DNA from: Corallococcus macrosporus
GTDB lineage: Bacteria > Myxococcota > Myxococcia > Myxococcales > Myxococcaceae
Assembly (NCBI RefSeq): GCF_017302985.1
Contig: NZ_JAFIMU010000012.1
Location: 248,001 to 312,000 of the forward strand
Direction of reading: 5' to 3'
DNA: 64,000 bases
This document shows, in pieces, positions 45,122-64,000 of this stretch. Positions within the stretch are counted from its first letter, which is position 1. Every line of letters starts with the position of its first letter. The notes under the pieces were generated by a model that was not told the DNA's origin, did no database searches, and saw only the letters and a list, made by a program, of their open reading frames with translations. The position numbers and the translations under genes were made by a program.

Positions 45122-46762
45122 AACGACTCGAGGGGCGGCTTCCGGCAGGATCGCGCCCGACTCCAGCCTGACCAGCCGGTCCGCCACGTCGAAGTACCGG
45201 TCGTCGTGGCTGATGACCACCACCGTCTTGCCGGCCGCCTTCAGGTCCGGCAGGAGTTCCCGGTAGAAGATCTCCTTGAACAGCGGGTCCTGATCCGCCG
45301 CCCACTCGTCGAAGAGATACACGGGACGGTCCTCCAGGTATGCGGCGAGCAGCGCCAGTCGTTTGCGCTGGCCCGTGGACAGCTCGGTGGTGGAGAGCGC
45401 CCCCTTCTCGTCGATGCGAACCTTGTGTTCCAGTTGCAACCGTCGCAGGTAGGTCCGCGCGCGGGCCGCATGGGCACCCTCGGCCAGGCCCATCAGCCGG
45501 TCGAAAAGGTGGAAGTCCGCGAACACCGTCGAGAAGAGCTCGCGGTAGCGCTCCTGGCCGGCCGCCGTCACAACCTGGCCGTCGACGCGGATCTCCCCGG
45601 ACTCTGGCGCGTAGAGGCCCGTGATCAGCTTGGCCAGCGTCGTCTTGCCGCTGCCGTTGCCGCCCACCACGAAGGAAATCTCCCCCGCGCGGAACGTCAG
45701 GCCGATAGGGCCCAGGGTGAAGGGCGTGTCCTCTCCTTCGCGGCGGTAGACATGCGTGACGTCCACCAGCTCGATGCGCGACGGTGCGGGGAGGGGTGCC
45801 CCAGCCGCCGGCGGTACAGGCTCACCGTCCGAGCCTTGCAGGTCCAACGTCTCGATATGCTTCAGCGCCACCACGCCCGCGCTCAGCATGGGGAGAATCA
45901 CCATGGATGAGTCCAGCGGCTGCTGAAGGTAGAGGACCGCCAGCGTGTAGGCCATCAGGGTGGACGGGGACACGGGGGCGATGCCCGGCAGCGCGAACAG
46001 GAGGAGCCCGATGAAGAAGAAGAACAGGCTCATCCCCCAGCTCGTCACCAGGATGTTGAGCGTGGACCTGCGCCGCTGGAACGCCTTCAGCTGATTCGCG
46101 GTGGGGAGGAGGTCCTCGGTGAGAAAGGCCCTGCGCCGCCCGCCGTTGAGCTTCAGCTCCTTCAATCCATGGGTGAGCGACCGCAGATCGCCGAAGAACC
46201 GGTCCGTCGTCTTCCGGGACTGTCGCAGCAGCCCCATGATTCGCCTCTGGGGCATCAGGTAGCTGGCCACGCCGAGCAGCGAGAAGACGACCAGCGCCGC
46301 GAAGACCAGCGGCGACATCACCGCCAGGTACACCATGACACCCACGACGATGCCGGCGTTGATCAACAGCGGTGGCACGCAGAGCAGGCCCTGGGTCACG
46401 GCCTGGACGTCATCCACCAGCGTGGCCAGAAGTCGCGGGATGCCCAGCTCCTCCAACCGGCGCAGGGGCGTCGTGAGAATCCGCCGGCTGAGCTGCTCTC
46501 GCAGCACGAACGTGGTGTCCGTGTGCAGCCGCATGATCAGCAACTGGGAGCTGATGCGGGAGCCCAACATGAGGATGCCCAGGGCGGCGAAGCCGAGGAT
46601 CGTCTCCCGCGCGACGTGCGTGCCCCCCTGGGCGAGCGCGGTGTTGATGTGCGCGATGAGCCCCGCGCTCGACAAGCCCGTCAGCAGCCCGAAACAGACA
46701 GCCAGGACCACGGTGGCGCGCGACCCGCGCAGCAACAGGAGGAGCAGGTTCACGGCGCGCAT
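45113..46762 (-). CDS. Cyclic-peptide export ABC transporter (SyrD/PvdE-like)
   Basis: 549 residues, a half-transporter with six N-terminal helices (to about 300) and a C-terminal ATPase: Walker A VVGGNGSGKTT, signature LSTGQRKRLAL, Walker B VYLFDEWAAD, switch His VISHDDRYF. The STGQ signature and DEWAADQDP are characteristic of the cyclic-peptide/siderophore exporter group. It is divergent from the FAAL gene with a shared 98-bp promoter region, so it probably exports the cluster product into the periplasm. Confidence 0.88.
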   Translation of the reverse strand: MRAVNLLLLLLRGSRATVVLAVCFGLLTGLSSAGLIAHINTALAQGGTHVARETILGFAALGILMLGSRISSQLLIMRLHTDTTFVLREQLSRRILTTPLRRLEELGIPRLLATLVDDVQAVTQGLLCVPPLLINAGIVVGVMVYLAVMSPLVFAALVVFSLLGVASYLMPQRRIMGLLRQSRKTTDRFFGDLRSLTHGLKELKLNGGRRRAFLTEDLLPTANQLKAFQRRRSTLNILVTSWGMSLFFFFIGLLLFALPGIAPVSPSTLMAYTLAVLYLQQPLDSSMVILPMLSAGVVALKHIETLDLQGSDGEPVPPAAGAPLPAPSRIELVDVTHVYRREGEDTPFTLGPIGLTFRAGEISFVVGGNGSGKTTLAKLITGLYAPESGEIRVDGQVVTAAGQERYRELFSTVFADFHLFDRLMGLAEGAHAARARTYLRRLQLEHKVRIDEKGALSTTELSTGQRKRLALLAAYLEDRPVYLFDEWAADQDPLFKEIFYRELLPDLKAAGKTVVVISHDDRYFDVADRLVRLESGAILPEAAPRVVPA

Positions 46763-46807
46763 TCCTTCAAGGGGGTCATGATGAATTCTTCGTTTTACGT
46801 CCCCCCC

Positions 46808-46836
46808 TTGACGTCAGGTGAAGAACCGATTTTACA
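46808..46836 (+). promoter_or_regulatory. Candidate promoter of the NRPS/PKS operon
   Basis: TTGACG (46808-46813) and TTTACA (46831-46836) are 17 bp apart, 24 bp before the ATG of the FAAL gene, in a short AT-rich stretch of an otherwise GC-rich region. The -10 match is weak. TACATT at 46844-46849 is an alternative. Confidence 0.4.
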
Positions 46837-46860
46837 GGTTGGTTACATTAGCCTGCCTGC

Positions 46861-49800
46861 ATGAACTTACTTGATATTCTGACAGATCGCGTCGAGACGG
46901 CCCCTCACGCGACGGCGTTCACCTTCCTTGACTCTGGAGAGGACGAGGCCGGGCGCCTGACGAACGCGGAGGTGCTGCGGCGTTCACGGGAAATCGGAGG
47001 ACTGCTGCGCGAAGCCGGTGCGCGGGGCGAGCGCGTCCTCCTGTTGTTTCCACCCGGCTTGGACTACGTGGCCGCGTTCCTGGGATGCCTGCAGGCGGGG
47101 GCGGTCGCCGTGCCCGCCTACCCTCCGGATCCGATGCGGCTGGCGCGCACGCTGCCCCGGCTGGAGGCGCTGACCGCGGACGCCCAGGTGCGCTTCGTGC
47201 TCGCGCCCGCCTTCATCCGCGACATGGCGCAGGAGCTGTTCGGGCAGGCGGACATGCTCGCGCGGGCGACGTGGCTGGCGCTGGAGGACGTCACCCCGGG
47301 CCACGCGGACGCCTGGAGGGACCCGGGCGTCAGCGGGGACACCGTCGCATTCCTGCAGTACACGTCCGGCTCCACCGGCGCGCCGCGCGGCGTGGTGCTG
47401 ACGCACGACAACCTGCTGCACAACTCCGCGGCCATCCAGCGCTGCTTCCAGCACGGCCCGGACAGCGTGGGGGTCATCTGGCTGCCGCCGTACCATGACA
47501 TGGGACTCATCGGCGGCATCCTCCAGCCGCTCTACGTGGGCTTCCCGGTGGTGCTGATGTCGCCGCTCGACTTCCTGGCCCGCCCCCTGCGCTGGCTGGA
47601 GGCGGTGTCGCGCTACCGGGCCACCACCAGCGGCGGGCCCAACTTCGCCTTCGAGCTGTGCGCGCGCAAGGCCACCGCCGAGCAGGTCGCTGAGCTGGAC
47701 CTGTCCTCGTGGCGCCTGGCCTTCAACGGCGCGGAGCCCCTGAACCCCGCCACGCTCGAGCGCTTCCAGCGGACCTTCGCGCCGGCCGGCTTCCGCCCCG
47801 AGGCGATGTATCCCTGCTACGGGCTCGCGGAGGCGACGCTCATCGCCTCCGGCAAGGCCACCGCCGTGCCGGTCGTGCGCGCCTTCGAGAAGGAGGCCCT
47901 GGCGGACGGCGAGGCCCGGCCCGCGCCGGAGGCCCCGCCGCTGGTGGGGTGCGGCGCGAGCCTGCCGGACCAGGAGCTGCTCATCGTGGACCCGGCGACG
48001 CGCCAGCCCCTGGCGGACGGGCGGGTGGGCGAAATCTGGCTGCGGGGCCCGTCGGTGGCGCGCGGGTACTGGAACCGGCCGGAGGAGACGGCGGAGTCCT
48101 TCGCGGCGCGCCGCGCGGACGCCGCCGCGGCCGGCCCCTACCTGCGCACCGGGGACCTGGGCTTCCTGCACGGCGGCGAGCTGTTCGTCAGCGGCCGGCT
48201 CAAGGACCTCATCATCGTCCGCGGGCGCAAGCACCACCCGCACGACCTGGAGCGCACCGCCGTGGCGAGCCACCCCGCGCTGCGGCCCGGGTGCTCCGCC
48301 GCGTTCAGCGCGCAGGCGCCGGAGGGCGAGCGGCTGGTGCTGGTGCAGGAGGTGGACCCGCGCAAGGCGTTCGAGGCGGAGGCCTGCGCCCGGCGCGTGC
48401 GCGAGGCGGTGACGCGCGAGCACGGCATCCAGTTGGACGAGGTGGTCTTCATCGCCCCCGGCAGCCTGCCGAAGACCTCCAGCGGCAAGGTGCAGCGCCG
48501 CGCGACCCGGGACGCGTGGCGCTCGGACGAACTCCAGGTGCTGGCCCGCGACGCGCGCGCCGCCCAGGAGGCCGCCACGGAGTCCGGGCCGCTGCCCGCG
48601 CTGGACGCGCTGCGGGCGCTGGAGCCCGCGGAGCGCGAGGCCCGGGTCGAGGCGTGGCTCAGGTCCCGCGCCGCGGCGGCGCTGCGCATCCCGGCCGCCC
48701 GGATGGACGCGGAGGCGCCGCTGGTGCAGCTGGGGCTGGACTCGCTGTCGTCCGTGGAGCTGCGGGCGGACATCGAGCAGGCCCTGGGCCTGAGCATCCC
48801 CCTGCCGGAGCTGCTGGGAGGTCTGTCGTTCGCGGAGCTGACCCGGCGCTGTCGACGCTCACTCGACGTGGCGCCGGTCGCGGCGTCGCGCCCCCAGCCC
48901 GTCGGGCGTGAGGGGGTCCTGCCGCTGTCGTTCGCCCAGGAGGAGATGTGGCTCGCCTCGCGACTGGATTCGAGCGGCGGCGGCTACCTCATCCCCGTGG
49001 CGCTGGAGCTGAAGGGCGCGCTCCAGGTGGTTTGGCTGGAGGAGGCCCTGCGGGAGATCCTCCAGCGTCACGAGGCCCTGCGCACCTGCTTCCCGGAGGT
49101 GGACGGCCGGCCGGTGCAGCACGTCCTGCCCGCCGCCGCGCTCCCCCTCCCCGTGGAGGACCTGCGGGGCCTGGCCCCCGAGGCGCGCGAGGCCCGCGTG
49201 CGGGAGGCGGCGCTCGCGGAGGCCCGCGCCCCGTTCGCGCTCCAGCAGGGCCCGCTGCTGCGCGCCCGGCTGCTCCAGGTGGAGGACGCGCGCCACGTCC
49301 TGCTCTTCACCGTGCACCACCTGGTGGCGGATGGCTGGTCCATGCGGCTGCTCGTCCAGGAGCTCGCCGCCCTCTACGCGGCGCGCCAGGCGGGGACGGC
49401 GCCCGAGCTGCCCGCCCTGCCCTACCAGTACGCGGACTTCGCGGTGTGGCAGCGCCAGCGGCTGACGGGCGAGCACCTGGAGTCGCTGCTGGGCTGGTGG
49501 CGGGGGGAGGTGGCGGGGCTCACCGACACGCCGCGGCTGCCCACGGACCATGACCCGGCGACGCCCCCGGACGGCCTGGGCGGCAGCCTGGACACGCTGC
49601 TCGCGCCCGAGCTCGCCGCGCGCCTGCGCGAAGGGTGCGCGAAGCACGGCGTGACGCCGTTCATGTGGATGCTCACGGTGTTCCAGCTGCTCCTGGCGCG
49701 CGGCACCGGCCAGGAGGACGGCGCGGTGGGCGTGGCGGACCTGGGGCGCGGCGCCCCGGGCTGCGAGCGGCTCATTGGCAACTTCATCAACATGCTGGTG

Positions 49801-50322
49801 CTGCGCCTGCCGCTGGGCGGCGACCCGCCCTTCCAGGACCTGCTGCGGCGGGTGCGGGAGCGCGCGCTGGGCGCCGCCGCGCACGCGGAGCTGCCCTACG
49901 AGCAGCTGGCCCGGGGCCGCGCGCCGCTGTTCCGCGCCGCCTTCGGCACCCAGAACCAGCCCCGCGAGCGCATCCTGCTGCCCGGCCTGGAGGTGCAGCC
50001 GCTGGCGTTCGACACGGGGCTGTCCCGGCTGGACCTCACGCTGTGGGTGTCGGAGACGCCCGAGGGCCTGCGCTGCCACTGGACGTACGCGACGCGCCTG
50101 TTCGAGCGGGCCAGCGTGGAGCGGCTGCACCGCCGCTTCGTGGAGTGGCTGGACGCGACGCTCGCCCGGCCCGAAGCGCGCCCGTCGTCGCTGGGCGGGG
50201 CCGCGCCCGGGGACACGGGCATGCGGGGCGCGCTGGACCGGCTGGGCCCCCGCCGCCGCCGCGACCCCGGCTCGGACGGCGGCGCCCCTCCCCCCAACGC
50301 CTCAGGACGCCAGACGCCATGA
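46861..50322 (+). CDS. Lipo-initiation module: FAAL-ACP-condensation
   Basis: 1153 residues. Residues 1-570 are a fatty acyl-AMP ligase: A3-type YTSGSTGAPRG from Y167, WLPPYHDMGLIGG typical of FAALs, and LRTGDLGFLHGGELFV. An ACP follows with phosphopantetheine site LGLDSLSS (S628). Residues 685-1105 are a condensation domain with an intact HHLVADG motif (819-825). A Gly/Arg/Pro-rich tail ends the protein, perhaps a docking segment. The FAAL should adenylate a free fatty acid and load the ACP; the C domain then acylates the first amino acid. First gene of the cluster operon; its TGA overlaps the next ATG by four bases. Confidence 0.92.
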   Translation: MNLLDILTDRVETAPHATAFTFLDSGEDEAGRLTNAEVLRRSREIGGLLREAGARGERVLLLFPPGLDYVAAFLGCLQAGAVAVPAYPPDPMRLARTLPRLEALTADAQVRFVLAPAFIRDMAQELFGQADMLARATWLALEDVTPGHADAWRDPGVSGDTVAFLQYTSGSTGAPRGVVLTHDNLLHNSAAIQRCFQHGPDSVGVIWLPPYHDMGLIGGILQPLYVGFPVVLMSPLDFLARPLRWLEAVSRYRATTSGGPNFAFELCARKATAEQVAELDLSSWRLAFNGAEPLNPATLERFQRTFAPAGFRPEAMYPCYGLAEATLIASGKATAVPVVRAFEKEALADGEARPAPEAPPLVGCGASLPDQELLIVDPATRQPLADGRVGEIWLRGPSVARGYWNRPEETAESFAARRADAAAAGPYLRTGDLGFLHGGELFVSGRLKDLIIVRGRKHHPHDLERTAVASHPALRPGCSAAFSAQAPEGERLVLVQEVDPRKAFEAEACARRVREAVTREHGIQLDEVVFIAPGSLPKTSSGKVQRRATRDAWRSDELQVLARDARAAQEAATESGPLPALDALRALEPAEREARVEAWLRSRAAAALRIPAARMDAEAPLVQLGLDSLSSVELRADIEQALGLSIPLPELLGGLSFAELTRRCRRSLDVAPVAASRPQPVGREGVLPLSFAQEEMWLASRLDSSGGGYLIPVALELKGALQVVWLEEALREILQRHEALRTCFPEVDGRPVQHVLPAAALPLPVEDLRGLAPEAREARVREAALAEARAPFALQQGPLLRARLLQVEDARHVLLFTVHHLVADGWSMRLLVQELAALYAARQAGTAPELPALPYQYADFAVWQRQRLTGEHLESLLGWWRGEVAGLTDTPRLPTDHDPATPPDGLGGSLDTLLAPELAARLREGCAKHGVTPFMWMLTVFQLLLARGTGQEDGAVGVADLGRGAPGCERLIGNFINMLVLRLPLGGDPPFQDLLRRVRERALGAAAHAELPYEQLARGRAPLFRAAFGTQNQPRERILLPGLEVQPLAFDTGLSRLDLTLWVSETPEGLRCHWTYATRLFERASVERLHRRFVEWLDATLARPEARPSSLGGAAPGDTGMRGALDRLGPRRRRDPGSDGGAPPPNASGRQTP

Positions 50323-51371
50323 AGAACGCACTCTCCGGATTGGGGGCGCGCTCGCGCAGCCCCGTCAAGCTGTCGCGCGCGGAGCTGGTGACCACGCGCC
50401 TGCCCGAGGGCGAGGACTGCCCGCTCATCGTGGAGCCCCGCGTGGAGGGGCTGGACCTGGTGACGTGGGCCCGGGAGCACCGCGACTGGGTGGAGGCGGA
50501 GCTGGCGCGCGTGGGCGGCCTGATGCTGCGCGGCTTCCGCATGGAGGGCGTGGACGGCTTCGCGGACTTCGTGCGCGCGACGTGCGGCGAGCCGCTGACG
50601 TACACGGAGCGCTCGTCCCCGCGCGAGGTCGTGAAGGATCAGGTCTACACGTCGACGTCGCACCCGTCGGACCAGGAGATCTTCCCGCACACGGAGCAGT
50701 CCTACAACCTGACGTTCCCCCAGCGGATCTACTTCCACTGCGTGACGGCGCCCACCGTGGCCGGCGCCACGCCCATCACCAGCACGCGCCGCATCCTGCG
50801 CGAGCTGCCGCGCGAGCTGGTGCAGCGCTTCGTGACGCGGGGCTACCGCTACGTGCGCAACTTCGGCGACGGCCTGGGGCTGTCCTGGCAGGAGGCCTTC
50901 CAGACGCAGGACCCGGCGGAGGTGGAGCGCTACTGCCGTGGCAGTGAGATCGACTTCCAGTGGCTGGGCCAGGGCCGGCTGCGCACCAGCCAGCGGCGCC
51001 CCTGCGTGGCGCGGCACCCCACCACGGGGGAGCTGGTGTGGTTCAACCACGCGACGTTCTTCCACGTGAGCACGCTGCCCGAGGACGTCACCACCCAGCT
51101 GCGCGCGCTCTACGCCGAGGACGCGCTGCCCAACAACACGTTCTACGGCGACGGGGCCCCCATCGAACCGGAGGTGCTGGAGCGGCTGCGCGCCGCGTAC
51201 CGGGACGGCCGCGTCGCGGTGCCCTGGCAGGCGGGGGACGTGCTGCTGCTGGACAACCTGTTGATGGCCCACGGCCGCCAGCCCTTCAAGGGCGAGCGCA
51301 AGGTGGTGGTCGCCATGGCCGACCCGCGCCGCTGGGCGGACGTCGTCTTCGAGGGGCCGCTGCCGGACTGA
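50319..51371 (+). CDS. TauD/TfdA-type dioxygenase 1 (SyrP-like)
   Basis: 350 residues; the ATG overlaps the FAAL gene's stop. Iron ligands H124 and E126 (FPHTEQSYN, an HxE instead of HxD) and distal H318 (LMAHGRQPFKGER) with R327 for 2-oxoglutarate. HxE and WFNHATFFH are shared with SyrP-like enzymes that hydroxylate amino acids bound to NRPS carrier domains. Position right before the NRPS gene supports beta-hydroxylation of its amino acid, still an inference. It is paralogous to the next gene. Confidence 0.88.
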   Translation: MKNALSGLGARSRSPVKLSRAELVTTRLPEGEDCPLIVEPRVEGLDLVTWAREHRDWVEAELARVGGLMLRGFRMEGVDGFADFVRATCGEPLTYTERSSPREVVKDQVYTSTSHPSDQEIFPHTEQSYNLTFPQRIYFHCVTAPTVAGATPITSTRRILRELPRELVQRFVTRGYRYVRNFGDGLGLSWQEAFQTQDPAEVERYCRGSEIDFQWLGQGRLRTSQRRPCVARHPTTGELVWFNHATFFHVSTLPEDVTTQLRALYAEDALPNNTFYGDGAPIEPEVLERLRAAYRDGRVAVPWQAGDVLLLDNLLMAHGRQPFKGERKVVVAMADPRRWADVVFEGPLPD

Positions 51372-51400
51372 CCGCCCCGTCACCGCATCCGAAAGAGCCC

Positions 51401-52444
51401 ATGACCCACAAGACCGACATCGCGGCCGGCCTCGGCTCGCGCCGCCGTGCCCCCGTGAAGGTGTCCTCCGACGCGCTGGTGAAGGAGGGCTCGCTGCCCG
51501 GACTGGAGGGCTTCCCCCTGCTGGTGGAGCCCGCGATGGAGGGCGTGGACCTGGCGGCCTGGGCCGAGAACCACCGCGCGTGGATCGACGCGAAGCTGCT
51601 GGAGGTGGGGGCGCTGCTCTTCCGCGGCTTCCACGTGCCGGACGCCCTGGCGTTCCGCGGCTTCCTGGGCGCGCTGGGCGACCCGCTGCTGGACTACATG
51701 GAGCGCGCGGCGCCGCGCACGCAGGTGGCCCCCAACGTCTACACCTCCACGGAGATGGCGGCGGACCAGTCCATCCCGCTGCACCACGAGATGTCCTACT
51801 CGCACCACTGGCCCGGCCGGCTGTGGTTCTACTGCGACGTGCCCTCGCGCGTGGGCGGCGCCACGCCGCTGGCGCCGGAGCGGCGGGTGACCGCGTCGCT
51901 GCCGGAGGACCTCAAGGCGCGCTTCCTGAAGAAGGGCGTCATGTACGTGCGCAACTACGGCGAGGGCGTGGACCTGCCGTGGCAGGAGGTCTTCCAGACG
52001 CGCGAGCGCGCGGAGGTGGAGCGCTACTGCCAGGGCTGCGGCATGACGTACGAGTGGCGCGAGGGCGACCGGCTGCGCACGCGCGCGGTGCGCCAGGTGA
52101 TGACGCCCCACCCCACCACGGGCGAGCCGCTCTGGTTCAACCACGCGCCCATCTTCCACGAGACGAACATGCCCCCCGCCGTCCGCGACGCGCTGCGGGC
52201 GCAGTTCCAGCCGGACGAGATGCCGCGCAACGCCTTCTATGGCGACGGCAGCCCGCTGGAGGCGGAGGTGCTGGAGCGCATCCGCGGCGCCTACGCCGAC
52301 GCCACCGTGCGCTTCGACTGGCGCAAGGCGGACGTCCTCATGGTGGACAACCACCTCGCCGTCCACGGCCGCGACCCCTTCGAGGGGGAGCGCTCCATCC
52401 TGGTCGCCATGGCCCGGCTGACCCGGCCCGCCGCCCATCCCTGA
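51401..52444 (+). CDS. TauD/TfdA-type dioxygenase 2 (SyrP-like)
   Basis: 347 residues, starting 29 bp after the first dioxygenase. Ligands H128 and E130 (LHHEMSYSHHW) and distal H322 (AVHGRDPFEGER), R331. It shares with its neighbour the N-terminal GLGSRRRAPVK/GLGARSRSPVK opening, the VRNYGEGVDLPWQEVFQT block, the WFNHAPIFH block and the C-terminal motif, so a tandem duplication is likely. Residue differences around the metal site suggest that the two may act on different positions or substrates. Confidence 0.88.
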   Translation: MTHKTDIAAGLGSRRRAPVKVSSDALVKEGSLPGLEGFPLLVEPAMEGVDLAAWAENHRAWIDAKLLEVGALLFRGFHVPDALAFRGFLGALGDPLLDYMERAAPRTQVAPNVYTSTEMAADQSIPLHHEMSYSHHWPGRLWFYCDVPSRVGGATPLAPERRVTASLPEDLKARFLKKGVMYVRNYGEGVDLPWQEVFQTRERAEVERYCQGCGMTYEWREGDRLRTRAVRQVMTPHPTTGEPLWFNHAPIFHETNMPPAVRDALRAQFQPDEMPRNAFYGDGSPLEAEVLERIRGAYADATVRFDWRKADVLMVDNHLAVHGRDPFEGERSILVAMARLTRPAAHP

Positions 52445-52490
52445 AGCCTTCCGCCCCACCCTCGCACTTGCACGCAGGAGCCCTCCGAAG

Positions 52491-55400
52491 ATGACCAGCG
52501 AAGCGATTGAAGGCTATCCGCTCTCCGCCGAGCAGCGGCGCCTGTGGGGCGTGGCCGGCGCGCGGCGCGTGCGCGCGGAGGTGCTCATCACCGGCCCCCT
52601 GCGCGTGGACGCGCTCGAGCGCGCCGTGGCCGACACGGCCGGGCGCTTCGAGATCCTGCGCACCCGCATGGCACGGCTGCCCGGCATGAGCACGCCGCTC
52701 CAGGCGGTGGCGGACCTGGCCGTCGCGGTCCACCCGGGCGCGCTGCCCCCCGCGGACGCCGCGGAGGACCGGCCGCTGCGCTGCGCGCTCCAGGCGGATG
52801 GCCCCGGGCGTCACCGGCTCCAGGTGGAGCTGCCGGCGCTGAACATGGACGCGTTCGCGCTGCGCGACCTGGTGAACGCCGTGGGACAGGCCTACGCGGG
52901 CCAGACCCCGGAGGGCGAGCCGCTCCAGTACATCGACTACGCGGACTGGCAGCGCGAGTTCCTCGCGGGCGACGACAAGGCGGAGGCCGCCGCCCACTGG
53001 CGGGGGCTGGCGGAGACGCTGCCCCCCGCCACCGCCCTGCCCTACGAGCGCCAGGAGGCCCCGCGCGAGGCGGCGGCCTGGGGCGTGCTGGAGGAGGCCC
53101 TGGAGGGCGCCGACGCCAGCGCATGGCGCGAGCAGGCGCGCCGCTCCGGCGTGGACCTAGAGGTGCTCGCGCACGCGGGCTTCCAGGCCCTGCTGTGGAA
53201 GCTGTCGGGCCAGGGGCCCCGCGTCGTCTCCACGCTGCGGCTGGATGGCCGCGCGTACGAGCAACTCGCGGGCGCGCTGGGCACGTTCGCGCGGTCGCTG
53301 CCGGTGGTGACCGCCCTGCCGGCGGACTACACGCTGGAGGACCTGATGGGGGCGCTGCGCCAGACGCACGCGGCCCACCGCCAGCACGCGCTCGCGTTCG
53401 ACGCGGACACCTACCCCTCGCTGGCGCCGTCCGCCGCGCAGGCGCCGTACGTGTTCCGCTTCGTGTCCTGGCCGGACACGGACCACGCGGGCGCGCGCTT
53501 CCACCTGGAGCGGCTGGAGGCCCGCGAGGACGTGGCGGCCCTGCTGCTCACGGTCACCGACGACGGGGCCCGGCTGGGCCTGCGCCTGGACTACGACGCG
53601 GGCCGCTTCGCCTCCGCGGACATGGCGCGGCTTTTGCGCGCGTACCGGGTGCTGCTGGACGAGGCGTGCCGCCACCCCACCGCGCGCCTGGGCACTCTGC
53701 GCGTGCTGGACGCCCGGGAGGAGGACCGCGTCGTGCGCGAATGGAACGCCACGGCGGAGCGCGTGGACGCGCCGTGCGTCCATGAGCAGTTCGCCGCCTT
53801 CGCGGCCTCGCAGCCGGACGCGCCCGCCGTGGTGTGCGAGGGCGTGACGCTGAGCTTCCGCGAGGTGAACCGGCGCGCCAACCAGCTCGCCGCCCACCTG
53901 CGGTCGCTGAACGTGGCGCCGGGGGACGCGGTGGGCCTGTGCCTGCCCCGCTCCGCGGACGCCATCGTCGCGCTGCTGGGCATCCTCAAGGCGGGCGCGG
54001 CGTATGTCCCGCTCGACGCGGAGCTGCCGGCGAAGCGGCTCGTCTTCATCCTGGAGAACACCCGCGCGGCGGTGGCCGTCACCCTCGCGGAGCTGGAGGG
54101 GCGGCTGGAGGGCTTCGGTGGCGCGCGCGTGCGCCTGGACGCGGACCGGGCCCGGCTCGACGCCGCGAGCGACGCGGACCCCGCGCTCCCGCTGGACCCC
54201 GAGCACCTGGCGTACGTGCTCTACACGTCCGGCTCCAGCGGCCAGCCCAAGGGCGTGATGGTGCGCCACCGCGGGCTCATCCACCTGGGGGCCGCGCTGG
54301 AGCGGGCCATCTACCGCGGGCGCGGCGAGCGGTTGGCGGTGGGCCTCAACGCGTCGCTGGCGTTCGACGCGTCGGTGAAGCAGATCCTCCAGGTGTGCCG
54401 GGGCCACACGCTCCACGTGCTCACCGACCGCGTCCGGCTGGACGGCGCGGCGATGGCCGCGTTGCTGCGGCAGGCCCCGCTGGACGTGCTGGACCTGACG
54501 CCCACGCAGCTGCGGCTGCTGCTGGAGAACCGGGACGGGCTGCCCCTGTCCGGGCTGCCCGTGCTCCTGCTCGGAGGCGAGGCCATCGACCCGGCGCTCT
54601 GGAAGCGGCTGGCCACCGAGGGGCGCGGCGCCTACAACCTCTACGGCCCCACCGAGTGCACGGTGGACACCACCACGGTGGCCGTCACGGCGGACGCGGC
54701 CGAGCCCACCCTGGGCGGACCGCTGATGAACGTGCGCGCGTACCTGCTGGACGCGGGCGGACGCCCCGTGCCGGTGGGGGTCCCCGGGGAGCTGTACATC
54801 GGCGGGGACGGCGTGGCGCGCGGCTACTGCGGCCGGCCCGACCTGACCGCGGAGCGCTTCGTGCCCGACCCGTTCAGCCCCACGCCCGGCGCCCGCATGT
54901 ACCGCAGCGGGGACCTGATGCGCTTCACCGAGACCGGCGCGCTCGTCTTCCTGGGCCGCGTGGACTTCCAGGTGAAGGTGCGCGGCTTCCGCATCGAGCT
55001 TGAGGAGATTGAGCAGGCCCTGGCCACCCACCCGGAGGTGCGCCACGCGGCGGTCACCGCGCGCGACGGGGGCGCGGAGGGCGCGCAGCTGGTGGCCTAC
55101 GTCATGCCCAAGCGCCGCCACGGCGCGCGGCTGGACGGCCGCGCCCGCTATGCGCTGCCCAACGGCCTGGCCATCCTGCACCAGAACAAGAACGAGACGG
55201 ACTACCTCTACCGGGAGCTGTTCCAGGAGCGGCTCTACATCCGCCACGGCGTGCGGCTGCCGGCCCGGGGCGTCATCCTGGACGTGGGCGCGAACATCGG
55301 CATGTTCTCCCTGTTCGCCAGCCTGCACGCCCCCGACTGCCAGGTGTACGCCTTCGAGCCGCTGCCCCCCCTGTACGAGACGGCCGCGGCGAACTGCGAG

Positions 55401-56510: not shown

Positions 56511-59500
56511 GCGACACCCTGGAGCAGGAAGGCCTGGAGGGCATCGCCGTCATCGGCATGGCGGGGCGCTTTCCCGGAGCCGCGGACGTGGACGCCTTCT
56601 GGCGCAACCTGCGCGACGGCGTGGAGTCCATCCGCACGTATTCGGAGGAGGAGCTGCGGCAGGCGGGCGTGGCCCCGGAGCTGCTGGCGGACCCCTCCTA
56701 CGTGCGGGCCAACGCCGCCCTGGACGGCGTCGAGCTGTTCGACGCGGCGTTCTTCGGGATGAACCCGGGCGTGGCGCAGATCACCGACCCGCAGCAGCGC
56801 GTGTTCCTGGAGGTGGCGTGGCACGCGCTGGAGCACGCGGGCTGCGACGCGGAGCGCTTCGCGGGGGACATCGGCGTCTTCGGCGGGCTCAGCATCAACA
56901 CGTACCTGCTGGAGAACCTGGCCGCCAACCGCGGCATCATCGAGTCGCACGGCATGCTCCAGGCGGCCATGGCCAACCGGGGCGACCACCTGGCCACGCT
57001 CACCGCCTACAAGCTCAAGCTGCGCGGCCCGGCGTTCGGCGTGCAGAGCACCTGTTCCACCGCCCTGTCCGCGGTGCACCTGGCGTGTCAGGCCCTGCTG
57101 GCGTACCAGACGGACGTGGCGCTGGCGGGCGGCGTGGCCGTGCGCGTGCCGCAGACGGCGGGCTACCTCTTCCAGGAGGGAGGCGTGGCGTCGCCGGACG
57201 GGCACTGCCGCCCCTTCGACGCGAAGGCCCGGGGCACCGTGTTCGGCAGCGGCGCGGGCGTGGTGGTGCTCAAGCGCCTGGAGGACGCGCTCGCGGCGGG
57301 GGACACCATCCACGCCGTCATCCGCGGCTCGGCGGCCAACAACGACGGCGCCATGAAGGTCGGCTACACGGCCCCGTCCGCCGAGGGGCAGCGCCGGGCC
57401 ATCGGCATGGCCCTGGCCGTGGCGGGCGTGTCCCCGGACACCGTGGAGTACGTGGAGTGCCACGGCACCGGCACGGTGCTCGGGGATCCGATAGAGGTGG
57501 AGGCCCTCACCCAGGTGTTCGCCGCGAAGACGCGGCGCAAGCACTTCTGCGCGCTCGGCTCCGTGAAGAGCAACATCGGGCACCTGGACACGGCCGCGGG
57601 CATCGCCGGGCTCATCAAGGCGGTGTTGTGCCTGAAGCACCGGCAGCTCCCCGCCACGCTTCACTTCGAGTCGCCCAACCCGGCGCTCGCGCTGGACGAC
57701 AGCCCCTTCTTCGTCAACGCCCGCCTGCGGGACTGGCCCCGCGCGGAGGCCCACCCGCGCCGCGCGGGCGTGAGCTCCTTCGGCATTGGCGGCACCAACG
57801 TGCACCTGGTGCTGGAGGAGGCGCCCCCCGCGCGTGAGACGCCGCGGGACTCGGGCTGGCAGACGCTGGTGCTGTCGGCCCGCACCCCGGGCGCGCTGGA
57901 GGTCGCGACGGAGCGGCTGCGCGAGCACCTGGCCGCGAACCCGGAGCTGGCGCTCGCGGACGTGGCCCACACGCTCCAGGCGGGCCGGCGCACCTTCGAG
58001 GTGCGCCGGGCCCTGGCGTGCCGCACCGTCGCGGAGGCGGTGGAGCTGCTGGAGCGGCTGCCGCCGGACCGCGCCTGGACGGGCAAGGCGGGCGGCACCG
58101 CGCGCTCGGTGGCGTTCCTCTTCCCGGGCGTAGGCAGCCAGCGCCCGGACATGGCGCGCGAGGTGGCCCGGGACGTGCCCGCCTTCGGGCGCCACCTGGA
58201 CCAGGTCCTGTCCGCGCTGGACGCGGCGCTGGGCCAGGATCTGCGCCCCCTGCTGTTCCCGGCGCCCGGCGCGGAGGCCGCCGCGGCCCAGGCGCTGGCG
58301 CGCACCCACCTGGCCGAGCCCGCGCTCTTCGCGGTGGAGTGCGCCCTGGCCCGGACGTGGAGTGACTGGGGCATCCAGCCCCGCGCCGTGCTGGGCGAGG
58401 GCATTGGCGAGTACACCGCCGCGCTCGTGGCCGGGGTGCTGTCCTTCGAGGACGCCGTGGCCCTGGTGGCGCTGCGCAGCCGGCTGGTGAAGCGCCTGCC
58501 GGAGGGCGCCATGACGGTGGTCATGCTGCCCGAGCGGGAGCTGGAGGCGCTGCTGCCCGCGCACGGCCTGTCCCTGGCCTCGGTGGGCCGCCCGTCCGTG
58601 GGCACGGTGTCCGGGCCGCTGGCGGGCATCGAGGCGCTGGAGGCGCGGCTCGCGGAGCGCGGCGTCGGCTTCCGGCGGCTGTCGGGCGACCGCGCGCTCC
58701 AGTCCCCCGCGGTGGACGCCATCACCGCGGAACTGGGTGCGGCGGTGCGGCGCGTGAGCCGCCGCGCGCCCACCGTGCCGTACTACTCCGGGGTCCACGG
58801 CGGCTGGGTGGAGGCGGCCCAGGTGGAGGACGCGGCGTGGTGGGCGTCGCAGCCGAGGCGCACGCTGCGGCTGTCGGCCGGCGTCGAGGCCCTCTACCAG
58901 GAGCCGGACCGGCTGCTGCTGGAGGTGGGCCCGGGCCGCGCGTGGCTCAACCTGGCCCGGCTCCATCCGGCGAAGGCGCCCCAGCACCTCGTGATGGGCT
59001 CGCTCGCGCACGACTCGAAGGAGCCCTCGGAGACGCACTCCCTGATGGCCGCGCTCGCGCGGGCGTGGGTGGCCGGAGCGTCCGTGGACTGGGAGGGCGT
59101 GCGGGCCGGGGCGCCGCGCGGGAACATCCCGCTGCCGCAGTACCCCTTCGAGCGCCAGCGCCTGTGGCTGGAGCCCACGCCGCGCGCGTCCGCCCCGGGC
59201 CCCGTGGAGGAGGCGCCGCTGCCGCCGCGCCGCGCCGACCCCGGGGACTGGTTCTTCGTGCCGTCGTGGAAGCGCACCGCGCCCGCGCCCCGGAGCGCCC
59301 CGCGCGCCCCGGAGCAGGTGCTGCTCTTCAGTGACGCCTTCGGCCTGGGCGACATGCTGGCCGCGCGGCTGGAGCAGCGGGGCCACCGCGTGCTGCGCGT
59401 CGAGCGTGGCGCCCGCACGGACCTGTCGTTCACGGACGGCCGCTGTACGTTGGACCCCCGGACGCCCGCGGACTGTCGCCGCCTGCTGCAGGAGCTGAAG

Positions 59501-62218
59501 GACCAGGGCCGCGCGCCCACGCGCCTCATCCACCTGTGGAGCGTGGATCCGCAGCGCCCCGCGGGCTCGCGCCTGGACGTACTGCCCCGGGTGGAGGAGT
59601 CCGGCTTCCGCTCGCTGGTGGCGCTGGCGCAGGCCGTGGGCGCGGTGCTCGCCACCGCCCCCCTGGAGCTGCAGGTCGTCTCCAGCCAGCTCTTCAGCGT
59701 CGCCGGGGACGAGGCGACGTGCCCGGAGAAGGCGACCCTGCTGGGGCCCTGCCTCGTCATCGGGCAGGAGTACCCGAACGTGCGCTGCCGCCTCGTGGAC
59801 GTGCCCCTGCCCGTGCCCGGGAGCACCGGGGAGGCGGGGCTCGTCGAGCACCTGGTGGCGGAGCTGGAGTCCCCCGCCACCGACGCCATCACCGCGTGGC
59901 GCGGGCGGCACCGCTGGGTGCGCACCCATGAGCCCGTGCGGCTGGAGGCCCCCGCCGAGGGCCGCGTGCCCCGGCTGCGGCCGGGCGGCGTGTACCTCGT
60001 CACCGGCGGCCTGGGCGGCATCGGCCTCGTGCTCGCGGAGGCGCTGGCGCGCGAGACGCGCGGCGCGAAGCTGGTGCTGCTGGGCCGCCAGGGGGCGCCG
60101 GAGCGCGCCACCTGGAACTCGCTGCTGGACTCGCGCGAGGACTCCGCGCCGGCGCGGCTCGTCCGCCGCCTGCGGGAGCTGGAGCGCGAGGGGGCCGAGG
60201 TGATGGCCGTGGCCGCGGACGTGACGGACCGCGCGCGCATGGCCGAGGTCCTGGCCGACGTGCGCGCGCGCTTCGGCGCGGTCAACGGCGTCCTCCACGC
60301 GGCCGGCGTGCCGGCGGGCGGCGCCCTGCAACTGAAGACGGAGGAGATCGCCCAGCGCGTGTTCGCCCCGAAGGTCCGGGGCACGCTGGTGCTGGACTCG
60401 CTGCTGGACGAGCGCGCGCTCGACTTCGTCATCCACTGCGCGTCCCGCACCTCCGCGCTGGGCGGCTTCGGCCAGGCGGACTACGTCGCGGCCAACGCCT
60501 TCCTCGACGCGTGGGCGCACCACAAGGCCCTCACCTCGTCCACCTTCACCGTCGCCGTGGACTGGTGCTCGTGGCGCGACGTGGGGATGCTCGCCCAGGC
60601 CGCCGCGAAGCAGGCTCCCCGCCCCCAGCCGGTGGCCGCGGCCCCCGCGCCGATGAGCGCGCCGGAGGAGCTGGGCCACCCGCTGCTCCAGCGGAAGCTG
60701 GCCTCCGCGCAGGGCACCGAGGTCTACGAGTCGGTGCTGCGCGTCGACACGCACTGGGTGCTCAACGATCACCGCATCCTGGGCAACCCGGTCATCGCGG
60801 GCACGACGTACCTGGAGATGGTCCGGGCGGCGTTCGACCGGCGCCTGACGGGGCACGACCTGGAGATCTCCGACGTCTACTTCCTCACCCCCCTGTCCGT
60901 GCGCCTGGGCGACCAGCGCGTGGCCCGGCTGGAGCTGGTGGACGAGGGCGACGCGGGCTGGAGCTTCCTCGTCAGCAGCCGGGGCGAGGGCACGGAGCCG
61001 GTCCGCCACGTCATGGGCCGGGCGCGCCCCCTCCCCGCGCAGCCCGTGGCCGCCCAGGACCTGGCCGCGCTCGTGGCGGCCTGCCCCACGCAGAAGGTCT
61101 TCACCGACGAGGACGCGCACGACGAGGACCACGGTCCCCGGTGGCAGTGCGTGCGCCGGGTGCGCTGGGGCCACCAGCAGGTGCTCGCGACGCTGGAGCT
61201 GCCGGCCGAGTTCGCGGGCGACCTGGACGCGATGAAGCTGCACCCCTCCCTGCTGGACAAGTCCATTGGCACGGGGCGCGACTTCATCCTGGGCGCGGTG
61301 CCGTACATGCCCTACTCGTACGGGCGGCTGGTCTTCCGCCGGCCGCTCACGCGCCGCATCCACGTGCACACGCGCTCGCACGGCGAGGACTCCAACCGCA
61401 GCGAGACGCCGGCCTTCGACCTGCGCATCCTGGACGACGAGGGCCGGGAGCTGGTGGAGATCACCCGCTTCGCCCTCAAGCGCGTCAACGACGTGGGCGC
61501 CGTGTACCGCTCGCTCGCCCTTCGCGAGGCCGCGGCCCAAGCTCCGGCCGCCCCGTCCGCCGCGCCCCCGCCCGCGGCGGCCCCGGCCTCCCTCGCGGAG
61601 AACGTCTTCGCGCAGATCCTCCGCCAGGAGGCCATCTCCCCCGCCGAGGGCGTGGACGTGCTGCGGCGCGTGCTGGCCAGCGCGGAGCTGCCCCAGGTGG
61701 TGGTGTCCCCCCGCGACCTGGAGGCCCTGCTCGCGCGCGGGCTCATCCACACCGCGCCCCACCGCACCGCCGAGGTGGAGGTGGAGCCGGAGCCCTCCGC
61801 GGAGGCCACGGCCTCGACGCCCCGGCGCCCCCGCCCCGAGCTGCCCGTCGCGTTCCAGCCGCCGGAGACCCGGCTGCAGGAGCAACTGGGCGACATCCTG
61901 CGCGAGGTGCTGGCGCTGGACCGGGTGGGCCTGAACGACAACTTCTTCGATCTGGGCGGCGACTCGGTCATGGCCATCCAGATCGTCTCGCGCATCAAGA
62001 AGCGGCTGGGCCGCGACATCGCGGTGGTGCAGCTCTTCGAGGCCCCCACGCTCGGCGCCCTGTCGCGGCTGCTGGGCGCGGCGGCGGGAGTGGACCCGGG
62101 GGCCGCCGCGGAAGCGCCGGCGTCCGACGCCGCGCCCGCCGCATCCGAGGACAGCGCCAGCCGTGGCGCCCGCCGCCGCGCCAGGGCCATCGCCCGGCGC
62201 GGCAGCGACGGCGAGTGA
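56507..62218 (+). CDS. PKS module: KS - degenerate AT - KR - DH - ACP
   Basis: 1903 residues, start GTG 56507 overlapping the NRPS stop. KS (11-435): C183 in STCSTAL, H319 in HGTGT, H359 in SNIGHLD, all intact. AT (525-830): the GHSxG motif reads GEGIG (630-634), and the later HAFHS-like site reads RALQSPAV, so nucleophile Ser and catalytic His are absent. KR (1160-1340): GGLGGIG (1167-1173), S1313 and Y1326 present. DH (1385-1670) lies after the KR: H1422 with HxxxG but Ala for the following Pro, D1584 in HPSLLD. ACP site GGDSVMA (S1820) and an Arg-rich tail. It should extend the acyl-aminoacyl chain by a two-carbon unit and reduce it to an alkene. Confidence 0.9.
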   Translation: MSDTLEQEGLEGIAVIGMAGRFPGAADVDAFWRNLRDGVESIRTYSEEELRQAGVAPELLADPSYVRANAALDGVELFDAAFFGMNPGVAQITDPQQRVFLEVAWHALEHAGCDAERFAGDIGVFGGLSINTYLLENLAANRGIIESHGMLQAAMANRGDHLATLTAYKLKLRGPAFGVQSTCSTALSAVHLACQALLAYQTDVALAGGVAVRVPQTAGYLFQEGGVASPDGHCRPFDAKARGTVFGSGAGVVVLKRLEDALAAGDTIHAVIRGSAANNDGAMKVGYTAPSAEGQRRAIGMALAVAGVSPDTVEYVECHGTGTVLGDPIEVEALTQVFAAKTRRKHFCALGSVKSNIGHLDTAAGIAGLIKAVLCLKHRQLPATLHFESPNPALALDDSPFFVNARLRDWPRAEAHPRRAGVSSFGIGGTNVHLVLEEAPPARETPRDSGWQTLVLSARTPGALEVATERLREHLAANPELALADVAHTLQAGRRTFEVRRALACRTVAEAVELLERLPPDRAWTGKAGGTARSVAFLFPGVGSQRPDMAREVARDVPAFGRHLDQVLSALDAALGQDLRPLLFPAPGAEAAAAQALARTHLAEPALFAVECALARTWSDWGIQPRAVLGEGIGEYTAALVAGVLSFEDAVALVALRSRLVKRLPEGAMTVVMLPERELEALLPAHGLSLASVGRPSVGTVSGPLAGIEALEARLAERGVGFRRLSGDRALQSPAVDAITAELGAAVRRVSRRAPTVPYYSGVHGGWVEAAQVEDAAWWASQPRRTLRLSAGVEALYQEPDRLLLEVGPGRAWLNLARLHPAKAPQHLVMGSLAHDSKEPSETHSLMAALARAWVAGASVDWEGVRAGAPRGNIPLPQYPFERQRLWLEPTPRASAPGPVEEAPLPPRRADPGDWFFVPSWKRTAPAPRSAPRAPEQVLLFSDAFGLGDMLAARLEQRGHRVLRVERGARTDLSFTDGRCTLDPRTPADCRRLLQELKDQGRAPTRLIHLWSVDPQRPAGSRLDVLPRVEESGFRSLVALAQAVGAVLATAPLELQVVSSQLFSVAGDEATCPEKATLLGPCLVIGQEYPNVRCRLVDVPLPVPGSTGEAGLVEHLVAELESPATDAITAWRGRHRWVRTHEPVRLEAPAEGRVPRLRPGGVYLVTGGLGGIGLVLAEALARETRGAKLVLLGRQGAPERATWNSLLDSREDSAPARLVRRLRELEREGAEVMAVAADVTDRARMAEVLADVRARFGAVNGVLHAAGVPAGGALQLKTEEIAQRVFAPKVRGTLVLDSLLDERALDFVIHCASRTSALGGFGQADYVAANAFLDAWAHHKALTSSTFTVAVDWCSWRDVGMLAQAAAKQAPRPQPVAAAPAPMSAPEELGHPLLQRKLASAQGTEVYESVLRVDTHWVLNDHRILGNPVIAGTTYLEMVRAAFDRRLTGHDLEISDVYFLTPLSVRLGDQRVARLELVDEGDAGWSFLVSSRGEGTEPVRHVMGRARPLPAQPVAAQDLAALVAACPTQKVFTDEDAHDEDHGPRWQCVRRVRWGHQQVLATLELPAEFAGDLDAMKLHPSLLDKSIGTGRDFILGAVPYMPYSYGRLVFRRPLTRRIHVHTRSHGEDSNRSETPAFDLRILDDEGRELVEITRFALKRVNDVGAVYRSLALREAAAQAPAAPSAAPPPAAAPASLAENVFAQILRQEAISPAEGVDVLRRVLASAELPQVVVSPRDLEALLARGLIHTAPHRTAEVEVEPEPSAEATASTPRRPRPELPVAFQPPETRLQEQLGDILREVLALDRVGLNDNFFDLGGDSVMAIQIVSRIKKRLGRDIAVVQLFEAPTLGALSRLLGAAAGVDPGAAAEAPASDAAPAASEDSASRGARRRARAIARRGSDGE

Positions 62219-62255
62219 CCCCTTCCGACATCCTTTGACTCCCCCGGTGACACAC

Positions 62256-63335
62256 ATGACGGTCGATAGCTCCCTCTCCGAACGCGTCGCGCAGCACCTG
62301 CGCTCGCGGCTGGAGACCTCCGCGCACCACACCCTCACGCCCCAGGAGCAGACGGTCCTGGACAAGGAGGGGCTGCGCGCCTTCCTCATCAAGCAGGTCC
62401 TGTCGAAGAAGTTCCGCAAGTGGTCCGTGGACGCGGACACGCAGCAGAACATCGCCAGGGTGGTGGACGCGGCCCTGAAGACGCAGCAGCCGCTGAGCTT
62501 CGTGTTGCCCATGGGCGGCTACAAGATCTGGCGCATCCCGTCGTCACCCGAGGTGGACTGGGCGGAGTTCTTCGGCATCGCCCACATCCTTCAGTACCTG
62601 AGCAGCATCGCGGCCGGGTACGCGCCGGGCGTGCACATGCAGTTCTTCATGTACACGTTCCTGCCCCAGCGCCACGACAACATGAGCGAGGCGTCCATCG
62701 AGCGCTACGTGGCGTCCTTCCAGGCGCTGCTGGACGCATTCGGCCGGCACCTGCCGCCCAACGTGAAGCTCTCCATCGTCCGGGACGCGGCCTTCTACAG
62801 CCGCGAGGAGTACTTCGGCCTGCTGGACGAGCGCTACGAGATGATGGCGATGGGCTTCAACGACTTCCCCGCCAAGCAGCGCGACACGTTCCTCAACTGG
62901 GCCCGGCAGAACATCCAGTGGAACGGGGCGGAGGACTGGACCGGGCTGAGCGAGGAGCAGAAGGAGGAGAAGATCCTCCGGGGCGCCATCTACGAGGTCG
63001 TCGGCATCTACACCGTGGAGAAGACCGCCGAGTTCATCATGGGCGGCGAGCGCATCGTCCTCTTCGTGTCGCAGGGCACCAACAGCGTGGGCATTGGCAG
63101 CACGAAGGCGTCGCGCGCGAAGTTCTGGGTGGGCACGGGCATCCTGGAGGACCGCGCCGGCGCCTTCTATGACCTGGTGCTGACGCCCAGCCAGTGGGAG
63201 CGCACCCAGGACGTGCCGCGCACGGTGCTGCCCTCGGACCTGCTGCCCCTCAAGAACCTGGGCAGCGTCCAGGTGGTGCACCAGCCGCTGGACTTCTCCC
63301 TCGCCGCCGACGCCACCCCGGCCAGGACGGGCTGA
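62256..63335 (+). CDS. Protein of unrecognised family within the PKS cluster
   Basis: 359 residues, between two PKS genes on the same strand (37 bp after one, 66 bp before the next). No signal peptide, no membrane helix. Landmarks: PLSFVLPMGGYKIWRIPSS (about 80-98), VDWAEFFGIAHILQYLSSIA, GVHMQFFMYTFLPQRHDNMS, PNVKLSIVRDAAFYSREEY, and a C-terminal VGIGSTKASRAKFWVGTG. The alternating strand-helix pattern suggests an alpha/beta (Rossmann-like) enzyme. I cannot match it to a family; its place implies a tailoring or precursor-supply enzyme for the cluster product. ATG 62256 is chosen; GTG 62247 is in frame. Confidence 0.75.
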   Translation: MTVDSSLSERVAQHLRSRLETSAHHTLTPQEQTVLDKEGLRAFLIKQVLSKKFRKWSVDADTQQNIARVVDAALKTQQPLSFVLPMGGYKIWRIPSSPEVDWAEFFGIAHILQYLSSIAAGYAPGVHMQFFMYTFLPQRHDNMSEASIERYVASFQALLDAFGRHLPPNVKLSIVRDAAFYSREEYFGLLDERYEMMAMGFNDFPAKQRDTFLNWARQNIQWNGAEDWTGLSEEQKEEKILRGAIYEVVGIYTVEKTAEFIMGGERIVLFVSQGTNSVGIGSTKASRAKFWVGTGILEDRAGAFYDLVLTPSQWERTQDVPRTVLPSDLLPLKNLGSVQVVHQPLDFSLAADATPARTG

Positions 63336-63401
63336 AGCAAGCCGCCCCTCCGCCGCGCCGCGACTCCCGACGCCCTCACCTTCCGTACGAGACGACCCAC
63401 C

Positions 63402-64000
63402 ATGAGCCGGACCGGAACTGAAATCGCCATCATCGGCATCGCGGGGCACTACCCGCGCTCCGCCCGCGTGCAGGACTTCTGGCGCCAGGTGCGGGAGGGC
63501 ACGGAGCTCGTCTCGTTCTTCACGCCGGAGGAGCTGCTCGCGAAGGGCGTGCCGGCCGAGCAGGTGAAGCACCCGAAGTTCGTGCGGGCCGCCGCGTTCC
63601 TGGAGGACATGGAGCGCTTCGACGCGGCGTTCTTCGGCATCCCGCCGCGCGAGGCCGCGCTGCTGGACCCGCAGCACCGCCACTTCCTGGAGTGCGCGTG
63701 GGAGGCGCTGGAGGACGCGGGCTACAACCCCCAGGGCGTGCCGGGCCGCGTGGGCGTCTACGCGGGCGCGGCGATGGACACGTACCTGCTCTACAACCTG
63801 ATGCGGAACCCCGTGGCGCTGGCCACGGATCCGCTCCAGCTCCAGCTGGCCAACGACAAGGACTACCTGACGACGCGGGTGTCCTACAAACTCAACCTCC
63901 GCGGCCCCAGCCACCTGGTGCAGTCCGCCTGTTCCTCGTCGCTCGTGGCGACCCACGTCGCGTGTCAGGCGCTGCTCAACGAGGAGTGTGACGTGGCGCT
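63402..64000 (+). CDS. PKS, N-terminal ketosynthase (3' part beyond window)
   Basis: About 199 residues are visible before the right edge. The start ATG 63402 opens a KS domain without N-terminal docking extension: IAIIGIAGHYPRSARVQDFW, FDAAFFGIPPREAALLDPQ, and the active-site Cys C177 in QSACSSSLVA. It shows that the assembly line goes on with at least one more extension module. Downstream domains, including whether it has a working AT, cannot be seen here. Confidence 0.9.
   Translation, partial: MSRTGTEIAIIGIAGHYPRSARVQDFWRQVREGTELVSFFTPEELLAKGVPAEQVKHPKFVRAAAFLEDMERFDAAFFGIPPREAALLDPQHRHFLECAWEALEDAGYNPQGVPGRVGVYAGAAMDTYLLYNLMRNPVALATDPLQLQLANDKDYLTTRVSYKLNLRGPSHLVQSACSSSLVATHVACQALLNEECDVA

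Follow-up and report, generated by a model that had tools for sequence, protein, structure and literature searches.

At the right-hand end of a 64,000-nucleotide stretch of the Corallococcus macrosporus genome (positions 248001-312000 of contig C12, hereafter the window; the genome comprises 9.8 Mb in 17 contigs) lies a gene cluster that combines nonribosomal peptide synthetase (NRPS) and polyketide synthase (PKS) modules and encloses a gene with a predicted PvcA-like fold, here called X. Myxobacteria are predatory soil bacteria known for antibiotics, and the whole genome contains 111 condensation-domain matches. The domain order in the cluster is FAAL-ACP-C; TauD1; TauD2; C0-A(methyltransferase inside)-PCP; KS-AT0-KR-DH-ACP; X; KS-AT-ACP-(C-A-PCP)x6-TE, where 0 marks domains whose catalytic residues are gone (FAAL, fatty acyl-AMP ligase; ACP and PCP, acyl and peptidyl carrier proteins; C, condensation; A, adenylation; KS, ketosynthase; AT, acyltransferase; KR, ketoreductase; DH, dehydratase; TE, thioesterase). 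From FAAL to PKS2 all genes point the same way; FAAL/TauD1 and NRPS1/PKS1 overlap by 4 bases, and gaps of 29-66 bases separate the others. The original prediction for this DNA had named a FAAL-ACP-C start, one amino acid module, at least two PKS modules, two hydroxylases and a divergent cyclic-peptide exporter, and all of these were recovered by domain searches, the exporter lying just outside the 46763-64000 interval considered there (Table 1). We regard it as likely that the locus encodes a complete and probably functional NRPS/PKS line for an acylated peptide-polyketide, tailored by X and shared as a family by six genomes.

Table 1. Coordinates of the cluster genes and the adjoining exporter, in window positions unless a contig is named.
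Feature	Position	Strand	Basis
ABC exporter, cyclic-peptide type (SyrD-like)	45113..46762	-	TIGR01194 481 bits, cut-off 286
FAAL-ACP-C protein	46861..50322	+	Pfam domains
TauD1, Fe(II)/2-oxoglutarate oxygenase	50319..51371	+	PF02668 148 bits
TauD2, Fe(II)/2-oxoglutarate oxygenase	51401..52444	+	PF02668 165 bits
NRPS1: C, A interrupted by FkbM methyltransferase, PCP	52491..56510	+	Pfam
PKS1: KS-AT-KR-DH-ACP	56507..62218	+	Pfam
Gene X, PvcA-like fold, 359 aa	62256..63335	+	AlphaFold2 model, structure comparison
PKS2-NRPS2 start	63402..64000, onward on C12 to 317438, then C16 (minus strand) to ~35092	+	KS-AT-ACP, six C-A-PCP, thioesterase

The last gene of the cluster runs out of the window. C12 ends at 317438, 5.4 kb further on. 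Its final 432 bp recur without any difference at one end of C16, a 52304-long contig that stops exactly there; the next best match to this overlap in the genome is 77% identical. The PKS2-NRPS2 reading frame stays open across the overlap, giving a joined protein of 7606 residues, and on C16 it adds five more modules followed by a thioesterase with a GWSMG motif. The join is supported by this open frame and by the same order and codes in Corallococcus terminator (G030), whose gene sits on one contig. Extension to the right, proposed in the original prediction as the way to find the remaining modules and the release domain, therefore yielded KS-AT-ACP, six C-A-PCP modules and the thioesterase. 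We reject the idea of a partial cluster, since the gene set runs on past the window and C12 into C16. The one open reading frame (ORF) examined 3' of the thioesterase has no Pfam match, and a DNA polymerase III alpha gene follows after about 1 kb on the opposite strand, which makes the thioesterase the probable end of the cluster.

A protein search with X among 96 genomes of the family returned six with a match, its own included, and a profile search of 195 genomes of the phylum returned the same six, always with X within this cassette. The five other genomes (G030, G023, G024, G067 and G068, of which G030 and G023 are of the same genus) have the complete set of seven genes, FAAL-C through PKS2, in unchanged order and with 65-86% identity to our cluster; in each of the six clusters X is located between PKS1 and PKS2. 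One X match each was found in G030 and G024. Directly downstream of the cassette, G030 harbors a second FAAL-TauD-NRPS-PKS cluster without X (L082:603-18240, onward into L083), and a similar cluster is present in G024. The first ORF of this sister cluster in G030, read by eye, joins a C-like domain to an apparent luciferase-type monooxygenase. No methyltransferase like that of NRPS1 was found in the sister-cluster stretches read in G030 and G024, although the same query finds it in all six X clusters.

The head of the assembly line is conserved. All six X clusters retain the motifs of the FAAL-carrier-C protein, and the first C domain, in the FAAL protein, has an intact HHxxxDG motif (HHxxADG in 6/6). 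In the C domain of NRPS1, LxMDxFA replaces HHxxxDG in every cluster (6/6). Such non-catalytic C domains were reportedly termed 'interface domains' by Reitz in 2019. antiSMASH 8 likewise names the class. The NRPS1 A domain is interrupted, its AMP-binding_C match falling in two stretches with an FkbM methyltransferase (PF05050) at residues 931-1129 by Pfam; the methyltransferase motif DVGANIG is kept in 6/6 X clusters, and this stretch matched no solved structure at E 0.001. Specificities of A domains were read from nine-position codes by comparison with reference codes of the Glu, Val, Ala, Gln, Asp, Thr and Cys types. The NRPS1 code, DAKDLGLVD, is identical in all six X clusters and presumably Glu-like; the Asp-specific A domain of potashchelin-type siderophores is thus absent (6/6).

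The two oxygenases carry an HTE...H motif (TauD1) and an HHE...H motif (TauD2). Among solved structures at E 0.001, TauD1 is nearest to 1y0z and TauD2 to 9yut and 1y0z, 7tcl being a further match for TauD1, and no PvcB chain was among the matches listed. We considered the two proteins as PvcB-like partners of X and set this aside, as their nearest structures are 1y0z and 9yut instead, which falls short of a formal exclusion.

The starter unit resembles those of potashchelin and cupriachelin, in which FAAL-ACP-C and TauD are followed by a second C domain before the A domain of a hydroxylated acidic residue (for potashchelin, FAAL-ACP-C-TauD-C-A(Asp)-PCP; PMC7100376). Our cluster differs from them by its Glu-type code, two stand-alone TauD proteins, the methyltransferase in the A domain, the PKS modules and X (PMC7100376). 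The shared starter arrangement raises the question of whether the product is a lipid metallophore with hydroxy-Glu as metal ligand, as potashchelin uses hydroxy-Asp. We think this improbable, because the chain would offer a single hydroxy-acid, probably O-methylated, and the cluster genes read include no hydroxamate or catechol gene; moreover, none of ten flanking proteins tested is a siderophore receptor, the remaining window and genome not having been scanned for one. The reading we prefer, in which the TauD enzymes prepare the residue for O-methylation, has a parallel in cystobactamid biosynthesis, where a SyrP-like oxygenase acts on a carrier-bound amino acid and O-methylation follows (CysH/CysJ/CysQ; CysJ and CysQ act on carrier-bound Asn, also in a myxobacterium; PMC7966384). 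That system is distinguished by Asn, a separate methyltransferase and an aminomutase/dehydratase domain, with no FAAL or PKS extension seen in the portion of the paper compared (PMC7966384). Insertion of an O-methyltransferase into the C-terminal part of an A domain is known from KtzH and ColG (PMC11355689); our case differs by the FkbM type of the insert (PF05050) and by the Glu-like code of the host domain.

In PKS1, the residues of KS, KR and ACP as well as the DH His and Asp are preserved in 6/6 X clusters. The AT, by contrast with active ATs, reads GEGIG and RALQS where these have GHSxG and HAFHS, again in all six; the catalytic Ser and His are gone and, as in modules served by an AT from outside, no working AT is left in the module (6/6). 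Malonate must then come from elsewhere, most simply via the PKS2 AT, which is intact in 6/6 X clusters, or via a housekeeping malonyl transferase. No discrete AT protein is encoded among the cluster genes read; no genome-wide search for one was made. The core of the dead AT is 71-78% identical between genomes, which suggests that it has been retained, perhaps as a scaffold.

In the sister clusters that lack X, the corresponding PKS retains GHSVG and HAFHS (2/2; G030 and G024), so that the AT is dead in six of six clusters with X and intact in both without it. Together with the position of X between PKS1 and PKS2, this could mean that X has departed from isonitrile chemistry and acts on PKS1/PKS2 intermediates, e.g. 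by supplying or processing a unit that the dead AT cannot load. We give this little credence. The six X clusters descend from one ancestor and the two sister clusters from another, which reduces the correlation between AT and X to a single event, and the sister clusters also differ by the missing methyltransferase. We know of no PvcA-fold protein that loads acyl units, and malonate could more simply be drawn from the PKS2 AT or a housekeeping transferase. We keep to X as a putative tailoring enzyme.

Six NRPS modules follow PKS2, with the codes DALHLGCLF, DLYDFSLIW, DALWLGGTF, DLFNNALTY, DGKDVGVVD and DLFNNALTY, in that order. We take DALWLGGTF to specify Val, DLFNNALTY Ala and DGKDVGVVD Gln or Glu, and DLYDFSLIW to be Cys-like, with an Asp at position 278. 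The first tail residue is probably hydrophobic judging from its code: the similar DAMHLGCTFK is printed in the Leu/Ile/Val section of one study, where it is given as also taking Hpg (4-hydroxyphenylglycine), and the same study prints DLYNLSLIWK, similar to DLYDFSLIW (PMC12283262). The number of tail modules differs between genomes: six with identical codes in ours and G030, eight in G024, at least seven in G023 (where the contig ends), seven in G067 and nine in G068. In the last of these, from a second genus, a Thr-type code opens the tail (contig C1, L037-L039). Across the six clusters, as read from their codes, a constant head bears a variable tail, and a residue with the Cys-like code bearing Asp at 278 is present in all six tails.

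Structure prediction gave a confident AlphaFold2 model of X (mean pLDDT 91.9, pTM 0.90), which points to a divergent isonitrile-synthase fold of the PvcA type. Foldseek matched it to PIsnA at E 5.9e-10, and VIA-align matched it to PvcA 3e59 (Z 21.9, root-mean-square deviation (rmsd) 3.1 over 277 residues) and to PIsnA 9dhm (Z 20.6, rmsd 3.3 over 274 residues; 9dh4, Z 20.4), the next entry scoring only Z 9.8. Matches to tyrosyl-tRNA synthetase and cyclodipeptide synthase (Z 8.5-9.8) were taken as a shared core fold only. By sequence, a profile of 16 X-family members searched against the Protein Data Bank found PIsnA (E 0.007) and PvcA (E 0.44), which is not decisive alone. Seven of the 16 members matched PF05141 (DIT1_PvcA) with E no higher than 10, the best at E 1e-5, and X itself was not one of them. 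Profile-profile comparison of X with nine canonical PF05141 proteins from genomes of the family gave a probability of 81% (E 1.2e-5) over only 93 columns; in the alignment the X-invariant P79, K90, D101, E104, P124, G125 and Y151 fall on the canonical-invariant P10, K21, D34, E37, P57, G58 and Y84. The canonical SDG, IHPQP and TPWH motifs were not found in X. The gene is under purifying selection (pN 0.12 versus pS 0.27-0.31 with four relatives; 0.21 versus 0.38 with G068). At E 0.001, 10 of 92 family genomes had PF05141 matches, X's own genome having none. In another genome of the genus (G016), a 530-residue ORF (L058:1009-2598) matches only positions 1-142 of the DIT1_PvcA model, at E 4e-14, and appears to be a divergent superfamily member; G002 (L059) has a partial match of the same kind.

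Distant relatives of X occur well beyond myxobacteria. A scan of genome contigs returned 13 loci, three in myxobacteria and ten elsewhere, Patescibacteria groups among them; in the phylum of one such relative, 13 of 379 genomes matched, that genome included, one of them weakly (E 1.5e-9). Among viral contigs, 66 pattern matches contained no relative. A shared biosynthetic context in Patescibacteria was looked for by eye in ORF lists of the ten loci and none was seen; two of the loci share a neighbor that is putatively a CCA-adding enzyme. One Patescibacteria metagenome-assembled genome carries two X relatives in tandem (L027:8916-11008). Six records of Rhizobium leguminosarum plasmids match X, with identities of 23.5-29.6% among the five matches listed. 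On plasmid pCC283b_4 (L080:7658-13011) the relative follows genes for a class III aminotransferase (annotated diaminobutyrate transaminase), a methyltransferase, MetK and a major facilitator superfamily (MFS) transporter, which is possibly a small biosynthetic operon; in a second record the gene is split into two ORFs. The Rhizobium relative retains K90, E104 and Y151, carries Ser in place of D101 and has no DIT1_PvcA match.

These data bear on whether X is a true isonitrile- or formamide-forming enzyme, joining an amine to a carbon of ribulose-5-phosphate as PvcA and IsnA do, with the product carrying the group. Like these enzymes (3e59, 9dh4, 9dhm), the X model has the fold over nearly its full length, PvcA and PIsnA being the only solved structures to match it so highly, and the seven invariant residues align; the company of the Rhizobium relative, the nearest annotated one, also fits. 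Sequence identity to them is only 12-15%, and unlike them X has no match to the Pfam family, misses several canonical motifs, has no PvcB-like partner in view and sits inside an NRPS/PKS operon. The Ser at D101 in Rhizobium, the nearest structures of the TauD proteins and the seemingly non-biosynthetic surroundings of the Patescibacteria relatives, as read from ORF lists, count against it too, as does the predicted chain, which offers no free amine. Isonitriles are known next to fatty acyl chains and NRPSs, in the isonitrile lipopeptide pathway of ScoE, but there an iron oxygenase and not a PvcA-fold protein forms the group, from a glycine adduct (PMC7949033). On balance we hold isonitrile or formamide formation to be a tentative and somewhat unlikely reading. 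The more general one, X as a tailoring enzyme, is kept, and with an isonitrile-synthase-like protein in the cluster the product may hold unusual chemistry.

From the gene order we infer the following steps. The FAAL would load a fatty acid onto the ACP, and the first C domain would couple it to Glu on the NRPS1 PCP. The second, non-catalytic C domain would serve as docking (interface) domain for the TauD oxygenases. These would hydroxylate Glu on the PCP, and O-methylation by the FkbM methyltransferase within the A domain would follow. PKS1 would add a C2 unit, reduced and dehydrated to the enoyl stage, PKS2 an unreduced C2 unit, and the six NRPS modules the putatively hydrophobic residue, the Cys-like residue, Val, Ala, Gln/Glu and Ala, before the thioesterase frees the chain, perhaps as a ring. 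X would tailor an amine-bearing precursor or the product. The predicted chain thus reads fatty acid, hydroxylated and O-methylated Glu, one or two C2 units, a possibly hydrophobic residue, Cys-like, Val, Ala, Gln/Glu and Ala. The fatty acid-Glu (oxidised, methylated)-polyketide order of the original prediction holds at the level of sequence, as judged from the TauD genes, the Glu code, the FkbM domain and the KS modules. That prediction had missed X, the loss of catalytic residues in the PKS1 AT and in the NRPS1 C domain, and the six tail modules that end in a thioesterase.

Several points weigh against this reading. The chain is a prediction, and the join of C12 and C16 is based on the exact overlap of two contig ends, not on reads. 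With a dead AT in PKS1 the chain may hold either one or two C2 units, and dehydration is less sure, as Ala replaces the Pro of the DH motif HxxxGxxxxP in 6/6 clusters. DLYDFSLIW and DALHLGCLF match no code that we could confirm and are absent from the main text of the literature compared. The sequence link of X to PvcA is weak, X having no Pfam match at E 10 and no NCBIfam match at E 0.001, and no free amine for it is evident in the predicted chain.

A known parallel to the overall plan is corramycin from Corallococcus coralloides, for which a FAAL start, a hydroxylated residue with in-cis O-methylation followed by PKS extension (as proposed), and a long NRPS tail are described (PMC10099666). 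Corramycin has its own glycerate (HAD), His and beta-Ala modules, and the excerpt of the paper does not mention an isonitrile-synthase-like gene. The same source proposes that the fatty acid of corramycin is a temporary cap and reports the same cap removal for vioprolide, describing FAAL starts of this kind in myxobacteria (PMC10099666). Removal of the fatty acid after assembly is conceivable here as well. We consider it unlikely, as no hydrolase was seen travelling with the cassette, a weak argument given that flanks were compared only a few kb out, and we retain an acylated product.

The exporter is divergent from the FAAL gene with 98 bases between them. The original prediction had called it dedicated to the cluster, which we could not uphold. 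Its closest relatives (74-75% identity, in G023 and G068) sit at other loci, divergent from FAAL genes about 0.2 kb off that are only 46-47% identical to ours, so that the exporter is not tied to this cassette although both genomes bear it. Upstream of the cassette in G067, a 51% relative diverges from a FAAL-like gene at a distance of about 2.7 kb, and in G068 one of 54-55% follows the last NRPS gene of the cassette; none was found in the cassette stretches of G024, G030 and G023. Travel of the exporter with the cassette is thus rejected in the stretches compared, and what recurs is the arrangement of exporter beside FAAL. Of the flanking ORFs compared (window position 14001 to the exporter; C16 18001-36000), none but the exporter and the thioesterase end has a match in the relatives' stretches, which extend only a few kb beyond the cassette. 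Adjoining the exporter, a phytanoyl-CoA dioxygenase family protein (window 44347-45090, +), unmatched in the relatives' stretches compared, might be a third cluster oxygenase. Next to it lies a putative coding region, a 1220-residue ORF without Pfam match at E 0.001 (window 40669-44331, -).

Overall, the assembly-line type is already known. Keyword searches of the open-licence literature, few of them aimed at the product and MIBiG not among the sources searched, returned no compound recognisable as this product, a weak negative, and turned up no assembly line of this type that pairs a conserved dead AT with a PvcA-fold protein likewise conserved. A bolder possibility, which we think quite unlikely, is that X represents a second PvcA-fold branch, apart from the canonical isonitrile synthases, whose substrates would be diamino acids or carrier-bound chains. 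It would make an isonitrile lipopeptide-polyketide here, e.g. by way of the Cys-like-coded residue, where the Asp at 278 could fit an amine side chain like that of 2,3-diaminopropionate, and the same family would act on small molecules encoded on Rhizobium plasmids and in some Patescibacteria. If our preferred reading is true, the cassette would define a new family of acylated peptide-polyketides that differ in their tails. X would be a concrete test enzyme outside the canonical isonitrile synthases, and would place a PvcA-type fold within an assembly line as well as in the small genomes of Patescibacteria and on plasmids of Rhizobium. The conserved dead-AT module, beside sister modules with a working AT, would offer a natural test of malonate supply.

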